Positions 23,415 through 29,852 of a DNA stretch of 42,710 nucleotides are shown here, one piece after another. Position numbers and translations under genes: made by a program. This DNA comes from Bacteroidales bacterium (GTDB lineage: Bacteria; Bacteroidota; Bacteroidia; Bacteroidales; UBA7960), in the NCBI GenBank assembly GCA_007118495.1, contig SKRM01000015.1, positions 1-42,710 of the forward strand. Direction: 5' to 3'. Position 1 is the first letter of the stretch. Every line of letters starts with the position of its first letter. The notes beneath the pieces are model-generated. The model saw nothing but the letters and a program-made list of their open reading frames with translations. It did not search any database and was not told the DNA's origin.

Positions 23415-23495
23415 TTACTTCTGTTTGAATTAATTCCAGCCTTGGTATTGCTTGGCTGATTGTTTCTATTGTTTAATTATTCAGACAGATTGATC

Positions 23496-25733
23496 ATGCA
23501 AATTAAAAATATTATCACCAGCTTTTTTGTCCTTGTGTTGCTATCTGGTAACACTGTGTTTGCACAGCGTGTCCAGATTCATGGCAATGTTTACGAACGT
23601 GAGGCCCATGGAGACCATTACCATTATCATCCACTGGCCGGAGCCAATGTGGTATGGCTTGGTACCACAAGCGGTACAGCCACCAATGCCGATGGACATT
23701 TTCACCTTGCTGTAACTGTTGAATTGCCCCATGAGATTGTGGTTAGTTATATCGGTTATCAAAGCGATACAATCATGGTTCATACTCCTCAGGATGAACT
23801 GGAAATTGTTTTGCTTTCATCTCAGGATCTTGGCGAGGTGGTTGTTTCAGGCAGACGGCCGGGTGCACATGTGTCGTCTATGGATCCTATTTTGACCAAT
23901 GTAATTACCACCAGTGAGCTGCAGCGTGCCGCTTGCTGTAATCTCTCAGAAGCCTTTGAAACCAATATTTCTGTCGACGTTTCATACAGTGATGCTGTTT
24001 CAGGGGCGCAGCAAATTCAAATGCTCGGATTGGCCGGAATTTACAGTCAGATTATGACAGAGAATATTCCATCCATAAGGGGGCTTGGGCAACCTTTTGG
24101 GTTGTCGTATATACCCGGACCATGGATGGAGTCAATCAGTATTTCAAAAGGAGCTGCCAGTGTGGTGAATGGCTATGAATCGCTGACAGGCCAGATCAAT
24201 GTTGACCTGAAAAAACCCGAAGGCCCGGAACAGTTCCATTATAATGCTTTTGCCAGTGATGATGGCCGTATGGAGACCTCCCTTGTTGCAGCCATGGATC
24301 TGGGACATAATTGGTCTACCATGATCATGGCCCATGGTGAGATGTTTAATAACCAGGTTGATCATAATCACAATTCATTTCTCGATCATCCACTGGTTAA
24401 AAAATACAATGTGATCAATCGTTACCGCTATGACCGGCATGGGGTGATGGACTCTCAATTTGGGTTTAACCTTATGCAGGAAGAACGTGAAGGCGGACAA
24501 AAAGCCTTTTTTTCAAATGGTGCTGATTTTGGTTCAAATCAGTATTATGGTTTTGGTATTAATACAACCCGCTTTCAGGCATTTGCCCGAACAGGCTTTT
24601 ATATGCCAGAAAAAGAAGATGCAAGCATAGGCACCCAAATTCAATACACCCACCAAAGCCATAATTCACATTATGGGTTGAGAACCTATGATGGAGAGCA
24701 GAATACTCTTTACCTTAACCTGTTGTTTACGGATATTATCCGAACACCCGATCACAGGTTTATTACAGGTGCCAGTTTTTTGCTTGATGATTACAGCGAA
24801 CAGTTGGGAGATTCATTGTTTGAAAGAAGAGAAGCTGTACCAGGAGTGTTTTTTGAATACACCTACCATACACATGAGAAGTTTACTGCTATTCTGGCAG
24901 CCAGGGCAGACTACCATAATTTGTATGGTATGCTTCTGACCCCGAGATCACACTTGCATTTTAACATCAGTATGCAAACCACAATAAGGGCCTCAGCTGG
25001 TAAAGGGTATAGGGTTCCCAATCCCATCGCTGAAAACACTGGCCTTTTGGTTAGCAATCGTGCCATCAGGCTGATGGAAGAAATTAAACCTGAGGAGGCC
25101 TGGAATTATGGTGGAAGCATTACCCACCGGTTTAACCTCTTTGGCAGTGAAGCTTCAGTAGTGGGTGAGGTTTACCGCACTAATTTCATTAACCAGATGG
25201 TTGTTGATGTGGATACAGACCACAACCAGGTGTTATTTTACAATCTGGATGGGAAGTCTTTTGCTAACAACTACCAGTTGGAGTTAAACTTTGAGCCTGT
25301 CCGTTTACTTGAAATTACTGCTGCATACAGGCATTCAGATGTGCAGTTGACCATTGGAGATGAGCTCAGATCGAAACCATTTGTGAATAAATACAGGGGT
25401 ATGGTTAGTGGATCATATGCCACACCACGCAATGACTGGCAGTTTGACCTTACTGCCCAGTTTAACGGGGTAAGCCGGCTGCCAGATATGCCTGAAGCTT
25501 TCAACCTGAGGTCTGAATCACCCTCTTACACCATTTTAAATGCCCAGGTAACCTATAGGTGGAGAAGTATGGATATTTATCTTGGTGGTGAAAACCTGAC
25601 TGACTATATCCAGAAAGATCCCATTCTCAATCCCCACTCTCCATTTGATGAGGGTTTCGATGGAAGCATGATCTGGGGTCCGCTTTTGGGGCGGAAGTTT
25701 TATCTTGGTCTGAGGATCTCTATTGAACGTTAG
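23496..25733 (+). CDS. TonB-dependent receptor of a metal-linked family
   Basis: Outer-membrane receptor of 745 residues. Signal peptide MQIKNIITSFFVLVLLSG to about residue 24; the ATG at 23496 is chosen over the in-frame upstream start at 23460 because it starts directly with the signal peptide. A CarboxypepD_reg-like domain follows (GANVVWLGTTSGTATNADG), interrupted early by the His-rich stretch HGDHYHYHP near residue 42. The plug region has the paired-Cys motif RAACCNLSEAFETN and GASSVVNGYE-like SKGAASVVNGYESLTGQI, which I associate with receptors located beside HMA and HYC_CC_PP genes. More His occurs in a loop, QVDHNHNSFLDHP. The barrel ends with GRKFYLGLRISIER. The pattern suggests a thiophilic metal or a metal complex as ligand; this is an inference. 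Confidence 0.92.
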   Translation: MQIKNIITSFFVLVLLSGNTVFAQRVQIHGNVYEREAHGDHYHYHPLAGANVVWLGTTSGTATNADGHFHLAVTVELPHEIVVSYIGYQSDTIMVHTPQDELEIVLLSSQDLGEVVVSGRRPGAHVSSMDPILTNVITTSELQRAACCNLSEAFETNISVDVSYSDAVSGAQQIQMLGLAGIYSQIMTENIPSIRGLGQPFGLSYIPGPWMESISISKGAASVVNGYESLTGQINVDLKKPEGPEQFHYNAFASDDGRMETSLVAAMDLGHNWSTMIMAHGEMFNNQVDHNHNSFLDHPLVKKYNVINRYRYDRHGVMDSQFGFNLMQEEREGGQKAFFSNGADFGSNQYYGFGINTTRFQAFARTGFYMPEKEDASIGTQIQYTHQSHNSHYGLRTYDGEQNTLYLNLLFTDIIRTPDHRFITGASFLLDDYSEQLGDSLFERREAVPGVFFEYTYHTHEKFTAILAARADYHNLYGMLLTPRSHLHFNISMQTTIRASAGKGYRVPNPIAENTGLLVSNRAIRLMEEIKPEEAWNYGGSITHRFNLFGSEASVVGEVYRTNFINQMVVDVDTDHNQVLFYNLDGKSFANNYQLELNFEPVRLLEITAAYRHSDVQLTIGDELRSKPFVNKYRGMVSGSYATPRNDWQFDLTAQFNGVSRLPDMPEAFNLRSESPSYTILNAQVTYRWRSMDIYLGGENLTDYIQKDPILNPHSPFDEGFDGSMIWGPLLGRKFYLGLRISIER

Positions 25734-25782
25734 AATATTTTATCCGAAGTGCGTTTTTTTTGGTTATGTTTTCCTGTATTAA

Positions 25783-26184
25783 GATGGCAGGGGCATATCC
25801 TTGCTGAAAATTCTTTACACCAATCATTGTATATATGACTGTGCCTATTGTATCAATAGGCGCAGCAATGATTTGCCACGGGCTTTCTTTACCCCTAAAG
25901 TGCTTGCTGAACTTACCATTAACTTTTATCGCAGAAATTATATCGAAGGGCTGTTTTTAAGTTCAGGTGTCGTCAGAAATCCTGATTATACAATGGAACA
26001 ACTGATTGCCAGTATTGCCATGTTGCGAGGTGCTTATCGCTTTAACGGGTACATTCACATGAAGGCCATACCGGGTTGTGACATCAATATAACCGAAAGA
26101 AAGAACCTTCGCCAAATGAGAGCTTTCATGCCTAAAAGGTATTGGAAGTACTTGCCAGAGAAGAATGGCTCGATCAACTTCTGA
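25783..26184 (+). pseudogene. Relic: radical SAM (TIGR03916-like) head fused to DUF4130 (TIGR03915-like) tail
   Basis: A short frame, open from just after a TAA at 25780, shows DGRGISLLKILYTNHC, then the radical SAM cluster motif CxxxCxxC as CIYDCAYC, and NRRSND and FYRRNYIEGLFLSSGV, all typical of the putative DNA-modification/repair radical SAM family of about 420 residues. Homology begins upstream of any start codon (the first usable one is the TTG at 25801), so the N-terminus is lost. After KAIPGCD (about 26082) the family sequence stops and the frame continues as NITERKN, then FMPKRYWKYLPEK. That tail matches, from memory, the C-terminus of the DUF4130 protein normally encoded next door. 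The simplest reading is one in-frame deletion of about 1.5 kb or more joining the two genes, plus loss of the 5' end. A functional mini-protein is unlikely, since the SAM barrel is cut short. Confidence 0.75.
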
Positions 26185-26186
26185 TA

Positions 26187-26218
26187 TTGGACGTTCTCAA
26201 AAAAAATCACCAAATTTG
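26187..26218 (+). promoter_or_regulatory. Candidate promoter for uvrC
   Basis: TTG (26187-26189), 21-base spacer, then CAAATTTG (26211-26218), one mismatch from TAnnTTTG, 26 bases before the uvrC ATG. Confidence 0.5.
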
Positions 26219-26244: not shown

Positions 26245-28077
26245 ATGTCAACCCGGCAAGAAAATAAATACTGGCCACAACTGGAGCCTGTTATCAGGTC
26301 TTTACCAGATAAACCAGGTGTTTACCAGTATTTTGATGACAACGGAAGAGCCATTTACATTGGAAAAGCCAAAAGCCTGAAAAAACGGGTCATGTCTTAT
26401 TTTGCAAAGGATACCCATGAGAGTGCCAGAATCAGGATGATGGTCAGGCGTATCGCCGAAATCAGACATATTGTCGTGGGGACTGAATTGGACGCACTTT
26501 TGCTGGAGAATAACCTCATCAAAAAATACCAGCCGCGTTACAATGTAATGTTAAAGGATGACAAGACCTTTCCGTGGATTTGCATTAAAAACGAGCCTTT
26601 CCCCAGAATATTTCCTACGCGCCAGGTGCTAAAGGATGGAAGCAAATATTTTGGTCCTTATGCTTCGGTAAAAATGATGAATGCCTTACTGGAACTGATC
26701 AGGCAACTTTTTCAGTATCGTACCTGCCGGCTTAATCTTACCCGTGAAAATATCGATGCAGGAAAATTCAGGGTATGTCTTCAATATCATATTGGCAACT
26801 GCAGGGGACCATGTGAGGGACTGCAGGATGAGGCCGACTATATGTTAACCATAGACCGCATAGAGCATATATTGAAAGGAAACCTGAATCTGGTGATGGC
26901 TGAGCTAAGAAAGATGATGAAGGAGTATGCTGATAAATATGCCTTTGAGCAGGCAGGAATGATTAAGGAAAAGCTCATGCTGCTTGAGAAATTTCAGAGC
27001 AAGTCAACTGTTGTGAATCCATCACTGACCGATGTGGAAGTTTTCTCCATTGTAAGTGATCAACGTTATGGCTTTGTTAACTACTTACGGGTGGTTAGCG
27101 GTGCTGTTGTACAATCACATACTGTTGAATTGAAGAAACAGCTTGATGAGTCTGATAGTCAGCTTCTTGATTTGACAATTCTGGACCTTAGGCAGAGGTT
27201 TGACAGCAAAGTCGATGAGGTGATTGTACCAATCAAACCTTCCTTTACCCTACCTGGTATCCGCTTTACTGTGCCCCGGCGGGGGGATAAAAAGCACTTG
27301 CTTGAATTATCTGAAAGGAATGCCAAATACTATCGGCTTGAAAAGCTGAAAAGACAAGAGCTGGTTGATCCGGATCGACATGCCAGAAGGCTGATGGAGC
27401 AAATACGCAAGGATATGCGGCTAGAAGTACTGCCTGAGCACATGGAGTGTTTTGATGTGAGCAATACCCAGGGTAATTATTCGGTAGCTGCACTGGTGGT
27501 GTTTCGCAAGACCCGCCCCAGCAAGAGAGAATACCGGCACTTTAATATTCAAAGTGTGAGTGGAGCAAATGATTTTGCCTCAATGGAGGAGGCAGTATAC
27601 AGGCGCTACCGTAGGCTTAAAGATGAAGAACTGCCTTTACCTCAACTGGTAGTAGTTGATGGAGGTAAAGGTCAGCTGAGCTCTGCTTTGGCTGCACTTG
27701 AAAAACTTGGTTTACGCAAAAAGGTGCCCGTAGTGGGTATTGCCAAACGGCTTGAAGAGATCTATTTTCCGGGAGACAGTATTCCTTTGTATATTGACAA
27801 GAAATCTGAAACACTCAAAGTGATACAACATATGCGGGATGAGGCCCATCGGTTTGGGGTAAAACACCACAGAGGCAGACGTGAGAAAGGCAGCCTTCAA
27901 TCTGGGTTGACCCTGATTAAAGGTATAGGCCCGGTAACAGTGCAGACACTGCTTAAAGAGTTTAAATCGGTGGCTGGCATCCATAAAGCCACAGAAGAAG
28001 AACTTATTCAGTCAGTAGGCTTGGCCAAGGCTAAGATTATTCGAAACCATTTTAAGAAGGATAAATGGATGAAATAA
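26245..28077 (+). CDS. uvrC: Excinuclease ABC subunit C
   Basis: Dual endonuclease of nucleotide excision repair that makes the cuts on both sides of the lesion after UvrA and UvrB act. The GIY-YIG domain is at the N-terminus (KPGVYQYFDDNGRAIYIGKA, residues 24-43), followed by the UVR motif (about residues 210-245), the RNase-H-like C-terminal nuclease (ECFDVSNTQGNYSVAALVVF near residue 395, with the catalytic Asp, and VVVDGGKGQL) and helix-hairpin-helix repeats (LTLIKGIGPVTVQTLLKEF near 555). At 610 residues it is full length. The next gene, a ClC transporter, overlaps its end by 13 bases, implying coupled translation. Confidence 0.97.
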   Translation: MSTRQENKYWPQLEPVIRSLPDKPGVYQYFDDNGRAIYIGKAKSLKKRVMSYFAKDTHESARIRMMVRRIAEIRHIVVGTELDALLLENNLIKKYQPRYNVMLKDDKTFPWICIKNEPFPRIFPTRQVLKDGSKYFGPYASVKMMNALLELIRQLFQYRTCRLNLTRENIDAGKFRVCLQYHIGNCRGPCEGLQDEADYMLTIDRIEHILKGNLNLVMAELRKMMKEYADKYAFEQAGMIKEKLMLLEKFQSKSTVVNPSLTDVEVFSIVSDQRYGFVNYLRVVSGAVVQSHTVELKKQLDESDSQLLDLTILDLRQRFDSKVDEVIVPIKPSFTLPGIRFTVPRRGDKKHLLELSERNAKYYRLEKLKRQELVDPDRHARRLMEQIRKDMRLEVLPEHMECFDVSNTQGNYSVAALVVFRKTRPSKREYRHFNIQSVSGANDFASMEEAVYRRYRRLKDEELPLPQLVVVDGGKGQLSSALAALEKLGLRKKVPVVGIAKRLEEIYFPGDSIPLYIDKKSETLKVIQHMRDEAHRFGVKHHRGRREKGSLQSGLTLIKGIGPVTVQTLLKEFKSVAGIHKATEEELIQSVGLAKAKIIRNHFKKDKWMK

Positions 28078-29852
28078 AGAAAAGATCCTGGCTTGAGCGT
28101 ATCCTGATATGGCGGATGCGGCACATCAGTGAAAAGCAGCTCATGCTCATTTTGAGCGTTATAATTGGCATTCTGGCTGCCATTGCTGCTGTGGTGCTGA
28201 AAACATCGGTACACTACCTCGAGGGCTGGGTTCGCAGTGTTCCGGGGGCACATATAGGCAACTGGCTATTTCTTATATTTCCGGTTATTGGCATTCTACT
28301 CACCGTAATCTATATCCGCAAATTTGTCAAAGACGATATCAGCCACGGAGTATCCAAGATACTGTATGCCATATCAAGGAATAAGGGGGTCATGAAATTG
28401 CACAACACCTATTCTTCGATCATTGCCTGCACTTTTACCGGTGGCTTTGGCGGATCTGTTGGGATGGAGGCGCCCATCGTTTCTACCGGAGCAGCTATTG
28501 GCTCAAATGTTGCCCAGGCCGCCAGGTTGGGGTTCAGGCGCACAAACCTTCTCATTGGCTGTGGGGCTGCTGCAGCCATCGCTGCCATATTCAAAGCACC
28601 CATAGCAGGATTGATATTCTCTCTTGAAGTGCTCATGCTTGATCTGACCATGGCTTCAATTATCCCATTGTTGATTGCCACGGTGGTTGGAGCAATTTTT
28701 TCCACCATTTTTCTCGGTGAGGGTGTTGAGTTTTACTTTGCCCTGAAAGACCCTTTTAATTATGGCCATATCCCCTTATACATATTGTTGGGTGTGGTAA
28801 CAGGTATGGTATCTCTTTATTTTTCGTGGATGAATTCAAGGGTCGAATCAAGTATTAAAAAAATAGACCACCCATACAAAAGGGTAATCTATGGTGGGAG
28901 CATTTTAGGAATACTTATTTTTCTTTTTCCACCACTGTTTGGCGAAGGTTATTACACTATGCGAAGTATGTTGTCAGGGCAGCCTGAACAACTACTTGAA
29001 CAAAGCATATTTGGACATCTGGTTGATGACACTGGTCTTGTCTTTGTAGCCTTTATGGTCTTTGTCCTCTTTTTTAAAGCTATTGCCACCTCGCTCACCA
29101 CCGGCTCAGGTGGAATTGGCGGTGTGTTTGCGCCCAGTTTGTTTATGGGAGGGATTACGGGTTTTATTTTTTCCAGGCTGGTAAACCTGTTTAGTGGATG
29201 GAAAATATCAGAATATAATTTCTCACTGGTTGGCATGGCCGGTTTGATAGCCGGGGTTATCCACGCACCCCTAACGGCCATATTCCTGATCGCAGAGATT
29301 ACAGGCGGATACGAACTTTTTATTCCGTTGATTCTGGTCTCATCCATTTCATACCTTACCGTTGTGTATTTCCAGCCACATTCACTTTACACAAAAAAGC
29401 TGGCACAGAAAGGACACTTGATTACCCACCATAAAGACAAGACGGTTCTTACCCTGCTCAATGTGGAGAACGTGCTTGAAACGAGTTTTGATAAAGTCAG
29501 ACCAGCTGATTCACTCGGTGACCTGGTGAAGGTCATAGCCAGGGCAAACAGGAATATTTTTCCCGTGACAGATCATGACAATAATTTTTTGGGGATTGTG
29601 CGGCTTGACGATGTGCGTGAAATCATGTTTGACCGGTCAAAATATGACAGCCTGAAAGTTCATCAAATGATGATTCAGCCCAGGGCAACAGTAAGTTTTG
29701 ATGATAATATGGACACTGTTATGCAGAAGTTCAGAGATTCAGGTTTATGGAATATGGCTGTGATTGACAAAGGAAAATACAAAGGTTTTGTATCCCGATC
29801 GAATGTTTTTAATATATACCGTAAAATGTTGCAGGAAGTATCTGAAGATTAA
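28065..29852 (+). CDS. ClC-family chloride channel/antiporter with C-terminal CBS pair
   Basis: Inner-membrane anion transporter of 595 residues. About ten to twelve membrane helices cover residues 28-440. Signature segments are GGFGGSVGMEAPIVSTGAA with the gating Glu at residue 135, and TTGSGGIGGVFAPSLFMGG near residue 350, which forms the anion-selectivity region. The gating Glu is kept, which in the family favours proton-coupled exchange over passive conduction. A pair of CBS domains at about 465-590 probably senses nucleotides or ionic strength. The first GSGIP-type motif reads SHGVSK here, a common variant. It overlaps the uvrC end by 13 bases. A repeat array begins eight bases after the stop. 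Confidence 0.95.
   Translation: MDEIKKRSWLERILIWRMRHISEKQLMLILSVIIGILAAIAAVVLKTSVHYLEGWVRSVPGAHIGNWLFLIFPVIGILLTVIYIRKFVKDDISHGVSKILYAISRNKGVMKLHNTYSSIIACTFTGGFGGSVGMEAPIVSTGAAIGSNVAQAARLGFRRTNLLIGCGAAAAIAAIFKAPIAGLIFSLEVLMLDLTMASIIPLLIATVVGAIFSTIFLGEGVEFYFALKDPFNYGHIPLYILLGVVTGMVSLYFSWMNSRVESSIKKIDHPYKRVIYGGSILGILIFLFPPLFGEGYYTMRSMLSGQPEQLLEQSIFGHLVDDTGLVFVAFMVFVLFFKAIATSLTTGSGGIGGVFAPSLFMGGITGFIFSRLVNLFSGWKISEYNFSLVGMAGLIAGVIHAPLTAIFLIAEITGGYELFIPLILVSSISYLTVVYFQPHSLYTKKLAQKGHLITHHKDKTVLTLLNVENVLETSFDKVRPADSLGDLVKVIARANRNIFPVTDHDNNFLGIVRLDDVREIMFDRSKYDSLKVHQMMIQPRATVSFDDNMDTVMQKFRDSGLWNMAVIDKGKYKGFVSRSNVFNIYRKMLQEVSED

Follow-up and report, generated by a model that had tools for sequence, protein, structure and literature searches.

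The closest described counterpart of the locus analyzed here is the gene pair rSAM_link_UDG/SAM_7_link_chp (TIGR03916 and TIGR03915; DUF4130, PF13566). The rSAM_link_UDG protein is presumably the one catalogued as COG4277. PMC3765255 presents DUF4130 as a predicted mutagenesis-related, SOS-associated enzyme, and the genes concerned there are working ones, whereas the pair described below is a scar. Sanchez-Osuna et al. (2021, PMC8565304) describe non-canonical LexA regulators of the SOS response in Bacteroidetes, which combine an HTH with an S24 peptidase and have N5-spaced palindromic operators. According to that study, the regulon contains dinB and a two-gene COG1573-COG4277 operon, and there is evidence for uvrC in the regulon of several species; both regulator groups are reported there as absent from Bacteroidales, and diverged N5-spaced palindromes are reported in other families (PMC8565304).

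The window, meaning the whole 42,710-nucleotide stretch of Bacteroidales DNA that was analyzed, contains an open frame that translates into 133 residues (positions 25783-26184, forward strand) and consists of pieces of both members of the pair in their usual order. Residues 1-109 matched positions 47-155 of the 415 positions of TIGR03916 (E = 5.2e-54), and residues 101-127 matched positions 217-243 of TIGR03915, where the model ends (E = 9.4e-9; both NCBIfam). The last 29 residues taken alone matched TIGR03915 (E = 5.1e-7) and Pfam DUF4130, in the latter case up to the last profile position (E = 7.9e-6). The first part of the frame is thus a fragment of about 100 codons of the radical SAM (rSAM) gene (25783-26082, forward strand, as judged by profile match and alignment), in which the radical SAM motif CxxxCxxC is kept as CIYDCAYC. 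It runs on, in frame, into the final 27 codons of the DUF4130 gene (26083-26163), after which come a short extension without a profile match and a stop codon (26164-26184). A preliminary description made from the sequence alone had proposed such an in-frame fusion, with the C terminus of DUF4130 as its tail, a change of family near 26083 without a frameshift, and homology beginning upstream of any start codon. All of this was borne out: the junction lies at about 26082/26083, and a TAA codon (25780-25782) directly precedes the first homologous codon.

Both genes are truncated, and their products score below the family cut-offs. The relic scored 183.9 bits over 109 residues against TIGR03916 (cut-off 343.5 bits), marking it as a fragment rather than a member protein, and 35.3 bits against TIGR03915 (cut-off 112.25 bits), for positions 217-243 of 243 only. 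Against Pfam DUF4130 (cut-off 27 bits) the tail alone fell just short with 26.4 bits and the whole frame exceeded the cut-off with 30.7 bits. By comparison, the intact rSAM gene of relative G011 scored 634.2 bits against TIGR03916, and both members of the G011 pair lay above their NCBIfam cut-offs. The G011 partner protein matched DUF4130 as its only Pfam family, with no glycosylase domain. In sequence searches of solved structures, the sole match of the rSAM protein was a 75-residue ComEA-related chain at one end (E = 0.0012), and the DUF4130 protein had no match at E values up to 0.1. When the assembly that contains the window (98% complete, 78 contigs) was searched at E = 0.001, no other copy of either NCBIfam family was found.

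The relic lies between a TonB-dependent receptor gene with Pfam plug and beta-barrel domains (23460-25733, forward strand) and a gene that we take to be uvrC from its name in the preliminary description and from its general features (26245-28077, forward strand). The uvrC gene is 69-73% identical to those of relatives over long matches. The next neighbor encodes a ClC-type chloride channel with CBS domains (28065-29852, forward strand), and a gene of this type also lies 3' of uvrC in relatives. Ten relatives have TonB receptor, rSAM, DUF4130, and uvrC in this order on one contig, some of the end genes being cut by contig ends; eight belong to the same genus (G003, G005, G007, G008, G011, G012, G014, and G015) and two to the wider family (G026 and G031). 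Two further genomes, G006 and G023, have the same gene order split over two contigs. In the window these same flanks enclose the relic, and the intact genes that the preliminary description had proposed looking for before uvrC are present in relatives. Homology to both genes, in order and in the syntenic place, with parts missing relative to intact relatives, identifies the frame as a relic. It is most probably a pseudogene scar of the rSAM_link_UDG-DUF4130 pair at the ancestral locus, and no fewer than two deletions would account for it.

The slot before uvrC is the ancestral site of the pair for this family. The suggestion that the uvrC side is the original neighborhood thus holds for the window's own family of genomes, but it does not extend further. 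In a sample covering the order, the 30 rSAM loci with the best scores all came from other families; 28 of them had DUF4130 adjoining rSAM, and none had uvrC in the approximately 1.5 kb of flank examined. At least 80 uvrC loci were found, 6 of the 80 listed being from the genus; at the other 74 among the matches listed, some on contigs that end near uvrC, no TonB, rSAM, DUF4130, or ClC gene was detected beside uvrC at E = 1e-3. One genome of the genus, G010 (93% complete), has its TonB gene (L223) and rSAM pair (L007) on different contigs, neither with its usual neighbor in the flank. Neither rSAM nor uvrC lies within 1.5 kb downstream of the TonB gene, and no uvrC gene was found in the genome; this arrangement is perhaps a rearrangement.

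The same pair has been lost from the same slot in other relatives. A single contig spans the slot in fifteen genomes; the pair is intact in ten of these and lost in five, and uvrC is present every time. This count leaves out G006 and G023, where the pair is spread over two contigs, G004, whose contig ends inside uvrC, G010 and G020, where neither TonB nor uvrC was seen beside the pair, and the genomes of the genus in which uvrC was not found (G001, G002, G009, G010, G017, G018, and G020). Besides the window, the losers are G016 and G019, where about 16 codons of the DUF4130 end are left, G025, which retains the operator described below and about 30 rSAM codons, and G013, which has no recognizable piece of the pair. 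A tree of the TonB, uvrC, and ClC proteins of the window and 18 relatives, which contains gaps and was rooted by hand on G031, places these losses on four separate branches. Specifically, the window groups with intact G008 (support 88), G016 and G019 with intact G014 (support 100), and G013 with G012 and G010 (support 97), and G025 stands next to G031, an intact member of the same genus. By this tree there were four independent losses. Transfer of the pair between genomes was also considered, as the relic lies near G010 and G020 in the rSAM tree (support 62) and near G008 in the tree of neighboring genes (support 88); this conflict was judged too weak to support a transfer.

Across the order the pair is patchy, with a TIGR03916 match above the cut-off in 56 of 295 sampled genomes. 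In two of the sampled genomes the rSAM_link_UDG gene itself appears broken, being in two overlapping pieces in G258 (contig C1, 635270-636486) and truncated with internal stops in G198 (contig C68, 20358-21053). Either sequencing error or genuine decay may explain these copies.

One point against reading the frame as a scar is that it remains open and has stayed well conserved. The relic shares 63-84% identity with 18 intact homologues over 98 alignment positions (78 for G023). Divergence of the fragment per unit of uvrC divergence shows no excess (0.73 versus 0.74 in other pairs), but it is raised relative to TonB (0.83 versus 0.66) and to ClC (1.24 versus 0.88). A codon model rejected omega = 1 over the whole relic branch (p = 2e-8), and a freely estimated omega for the relic was 0.014 versus a background of 0.039 (p = 0.06), in both cases with the branch length at its bound, that is, saturated. 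Rejection of omega = 1 over the whole branch is expected if most of that branch was functional. Three of 49 otherwise invariant positions are changed in the relic, one of them beside the junction, compared with 0-2 in single intact genes, and one invariant cysteine is lost. The relic looks young and the loss recent.

The same data could be taken to mean that the fused frame is a working small protein under selection, given 133 open codons with CxxxCxxC in place, the identity to intact homologues, the lack of excess divergence relative to uvrC, and the rejection of omega = 1 on its saturated branch. We consider this very unlikely. There is no ATG before the CxxxCxxC motif, the only candidate start being a TTG at 25801, and recent loss accounts for the conservation equally well. 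The divergence relative to TonB and ClC and the lost cysteine also argue against it. The preliminary description had named the same short frame under purifying selection in close relatives as evidence against its own reading; none of the 20 other genomes of the genus (21 with the window's) carries it. Residual function is unlikely, since the operator, the usual start, most of rSAM, and nearly all of DUF4130 are gone and the frame recurs in no genome of the genus.

At the internal junction the rSAM-like codons ..CCG GGT TGT GAC are followed by the DUF4130-like codons ATC AAT ATA ACC GAA AGA AAG AAC. Relative to the eight intact slots in which it could be measured, the internal loss amounts to 1502-1720 nucleotides; the tail pattern used for this measurement missed G008 and G031 (in the relic alignment also G006), which gave no value. 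The 5' end of the operon is missing as well. The distance from the end of the TonB match to the first homologous rSAM codon is 52 nucleotides in the window versus 211-404 nucleotides in the ten intact slots, and none of the three forward reading frames in the interval from the TonB gene to the relic encodes the rSAM N terminus. In the ten intact slots the start of the operator lies 165-184 nucleotides before the first homologous rSAM codon. The window has thus lost the operator, the start codon, and the first 45-49 rSAM codons (45 by profile-match numbering, 49 counted from the ATG of G011). A stretch just upstream, TTTTCCTGTATTAA (25769-25782, forward strand), resembles by eye the box TTTTCCTTATATTA of intact operons, and MAFFT left this stretch unaligned. 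It may be what is left of the operon promoter; beyond it the window passes, again by eye, directly to GATGGC inside the rSAM gene, without the operator and start codon that should come next.

Because the 5' end is missing in addition to the internal segment, at least two junctions are required. One deletion would have run from the operon promoter into the rSAM gene, taking with it the operator, the start codon, and the first 45-49 codons, and another, of about 1.5 kb, would have brought the central part of the rSAM gene next to the 27 terminal DUF4130 codons, in frame by chance. The preliminary description had proposed looking for short direct repeats at the junction. No long repeat could be deduced, and comparison by eye with relatives, which stood in for the ancestral sequence, gave about 1-3 shared bases. 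So few bases common to both sides suggest illegitimate joining.

The window's assembly is a draft of 78 contigs, and the join was judged from this assembly alone, which leaves room for an assembly artefact. We regard this as highly improbable. The 1-3 bases shared at the junctions by eye are far below the overlap that assemblers use, two such junctions would be required, the rest of the genome did not yield the missing parts, and other deletions are present at the same slot in separate genomes. That a single deletion fused the two genes with nothing else lost, as in the preliminary description, where one event was to explain everything, is scarcely credible: one in-frame internal junction does account for the two-family fusion, but the rSAM start, operator, and 45-49 codons are also gone, and one complex event keeping a middle piece, possible in itself, would still need two junctions. 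Considering the evidence as a whole, we hold with good confidence that the frame is a non-functional scar of the TIGR03916-TIGR03915 operon that the ancestor of the family had between the TonB gene and uvrC, that at least two deletions produced it, and that the pair was probably damage-induced before it was lost.

The case for damage induction comes from a palindrome, TGATYA-N5-TRATCA, found at a nearly fixed distance before all 14 intact rSAM genes of genera g1, g4, g6, and g7. Eleven sites are exact, and those of G005, G006, and G023 have one mismatch. The operator is also present at the G025 scar. In G024, of the same family, it is missing before rSAM (3 mismatches), and a search allowing up to one mismatch found it at none of the 30 best-scoring rSAM loci from the rest of the order. 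The window's genome (G000) contains only two exact 18-base sites, TTGATYANNNNNTRATCA, which form a tandem pair. These two TTGATYA-N5-TRATCA sites lie between diverging genes for a LexA-like HTH-S24 regulator and a DinB-type polymerase (L160, 651-2788 on contig C28). A one-mismatch search of this genome gave 47 rows versus 5 in the control. Exact 18-base sites occur at 44 distinct places in the genus by hand count, compared with one match in the control; 9 are before rSAM, 16 at regulator/dinB promoters, and 19 elsewhere.

The S24 protein of L160 (651-1478) matches Pfam HTH_3 and Peptidase_S24. An Ala-Gly site together with a Ser/Lys pair is the hallmark of LexA-type S24 regulators. The regulator was found in 31 of 59 genomes (E = 1e-30 or better), and the Ala-Gly, Ser, and Lys residues are kept in all 31 (32 rows, one genome appearing twice). 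A dinB gene lies within the regulator locus in 25 of the 31. An exact operator within 260 nucleotides upstream of the regulator was present in only 16 of the 31, including four genomes of other families (G039, G041, G044, and G051).

The L160 protein, with its HTH, S24 domain, Ala-Gly site, and Ser/Lys pair, was likened to the published regulator groups by these features rather than by sequence comparison. The system resembles the Bacteroidetes LexA regulators of PMC8565304 in having HTH and S24 domains, an N5-spaced palindrome, dinB, and a two-gene operon in the regulon. It differs in its operator, TGATYA-N5-TRATCA, where that study gives CTAA-N5-TTAG or GGA-N5-TCC, and in its occurrence in Bacteroidales genomes, from which both published groups are there said to be absent (PMC8565304). 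A word search of one open-access collection found no Bacteroidales operator of this kind in print, the motif letters being sought only inside PMC8565304.

The operator shared by rSAM and the regulator/dinB promoters suggests that the pair lost from the window is probably SOS-induced in this family. When DNA is damaged, an S24 repressor of the LexA-like type would cleave itself and free the TGATYA-N5-TRATCA sites before dinB and the rSAM gene, and the rSAM and DUF4130 proteins would then act on a damaged or modified base.

Several related arrangements were seen. A relative of the S24 regulator (35-39% identical) adjoins rSAM in 5 of the 30 order-wide loci (L005 in G046, L299, L304, L307, and L308), all five without the TGATYA-N5-TRATCA operator; at L304 dinB also lies beside rSAM and the S24 relative. 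On contig C44 of G020 (L216, 3-1390), tandem operators lie between dinB and a stretch on the opposite strand that encodes a weakly M15-peptidase-like protein and an AP_endonuc_2 (endonuclease IV-like) protein, with one more operator site at the far side; contig C6 of G010 has similar site spacing. In the loser G019 (92% complete), neither the S24 regulator (E = 1e-30) nor DinB (E = 1e-60) was matched; its sister G016 has DinB, and two exact operator sites are present elsewhere in the G019 genome. Perhaps the whole regulon is shrinking in G019.

Loss of the pair may also have consequences for uvrC. Between the end of the DUF4130 match and the uvrC start there are 36-133 nucleotides in ten of the 12 intact genomes; the gap is 394 nucleotides in G005 and 468 in G006. 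Given this proximity, uvrC may also be read from the operon promoter. Promoters of Bacteroidetes carry the element TAnnTTTG. A search of 17 slots for CANNTTTG, a box that we take to resemble this element, found it 15-58 nucleotides upstream of uvrC in 15 of them, the five losers among these, a count made without a shuffled control. The copy in the window is CAAATTTG (26211-26218, forward strand). The best operator-like sites at the loser slots have 3 (window), 5 (G013), 4 (G016), and 4 (G019) mismatches. If uvrC is read with the operon, the losses in these four genomes would cut it off from the operator and leave it with its own promoter-like box. The loss in G025 would instead leave the operator before uvrC, with only the rSAM scar of about 30 codons in between.

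The scar itself is an ordinary kind of thing, and what it adds is the recurrent loss and the operator in Bacteroidales. Tentatively, and with slightly less than even confidence, we propose that TGATYA-N5-TRATCA and the S24 repressor form an SOS-like regulon in Bacteroidales and that the slot is a recurrent deletion site at which loss of the pair rewires uvrC. Gene loss is usually visible only as absence. Here one slot presents intact operons, three kinds of scar, and one case without recognizable remains, so that the successive stages by which a repair system disappears can be followed. Comparison of operators links a pair that has received little study with dinB and a LexA-like repressor in Bacteroidales, which makes it possible to test directly when the cell uses the pair.
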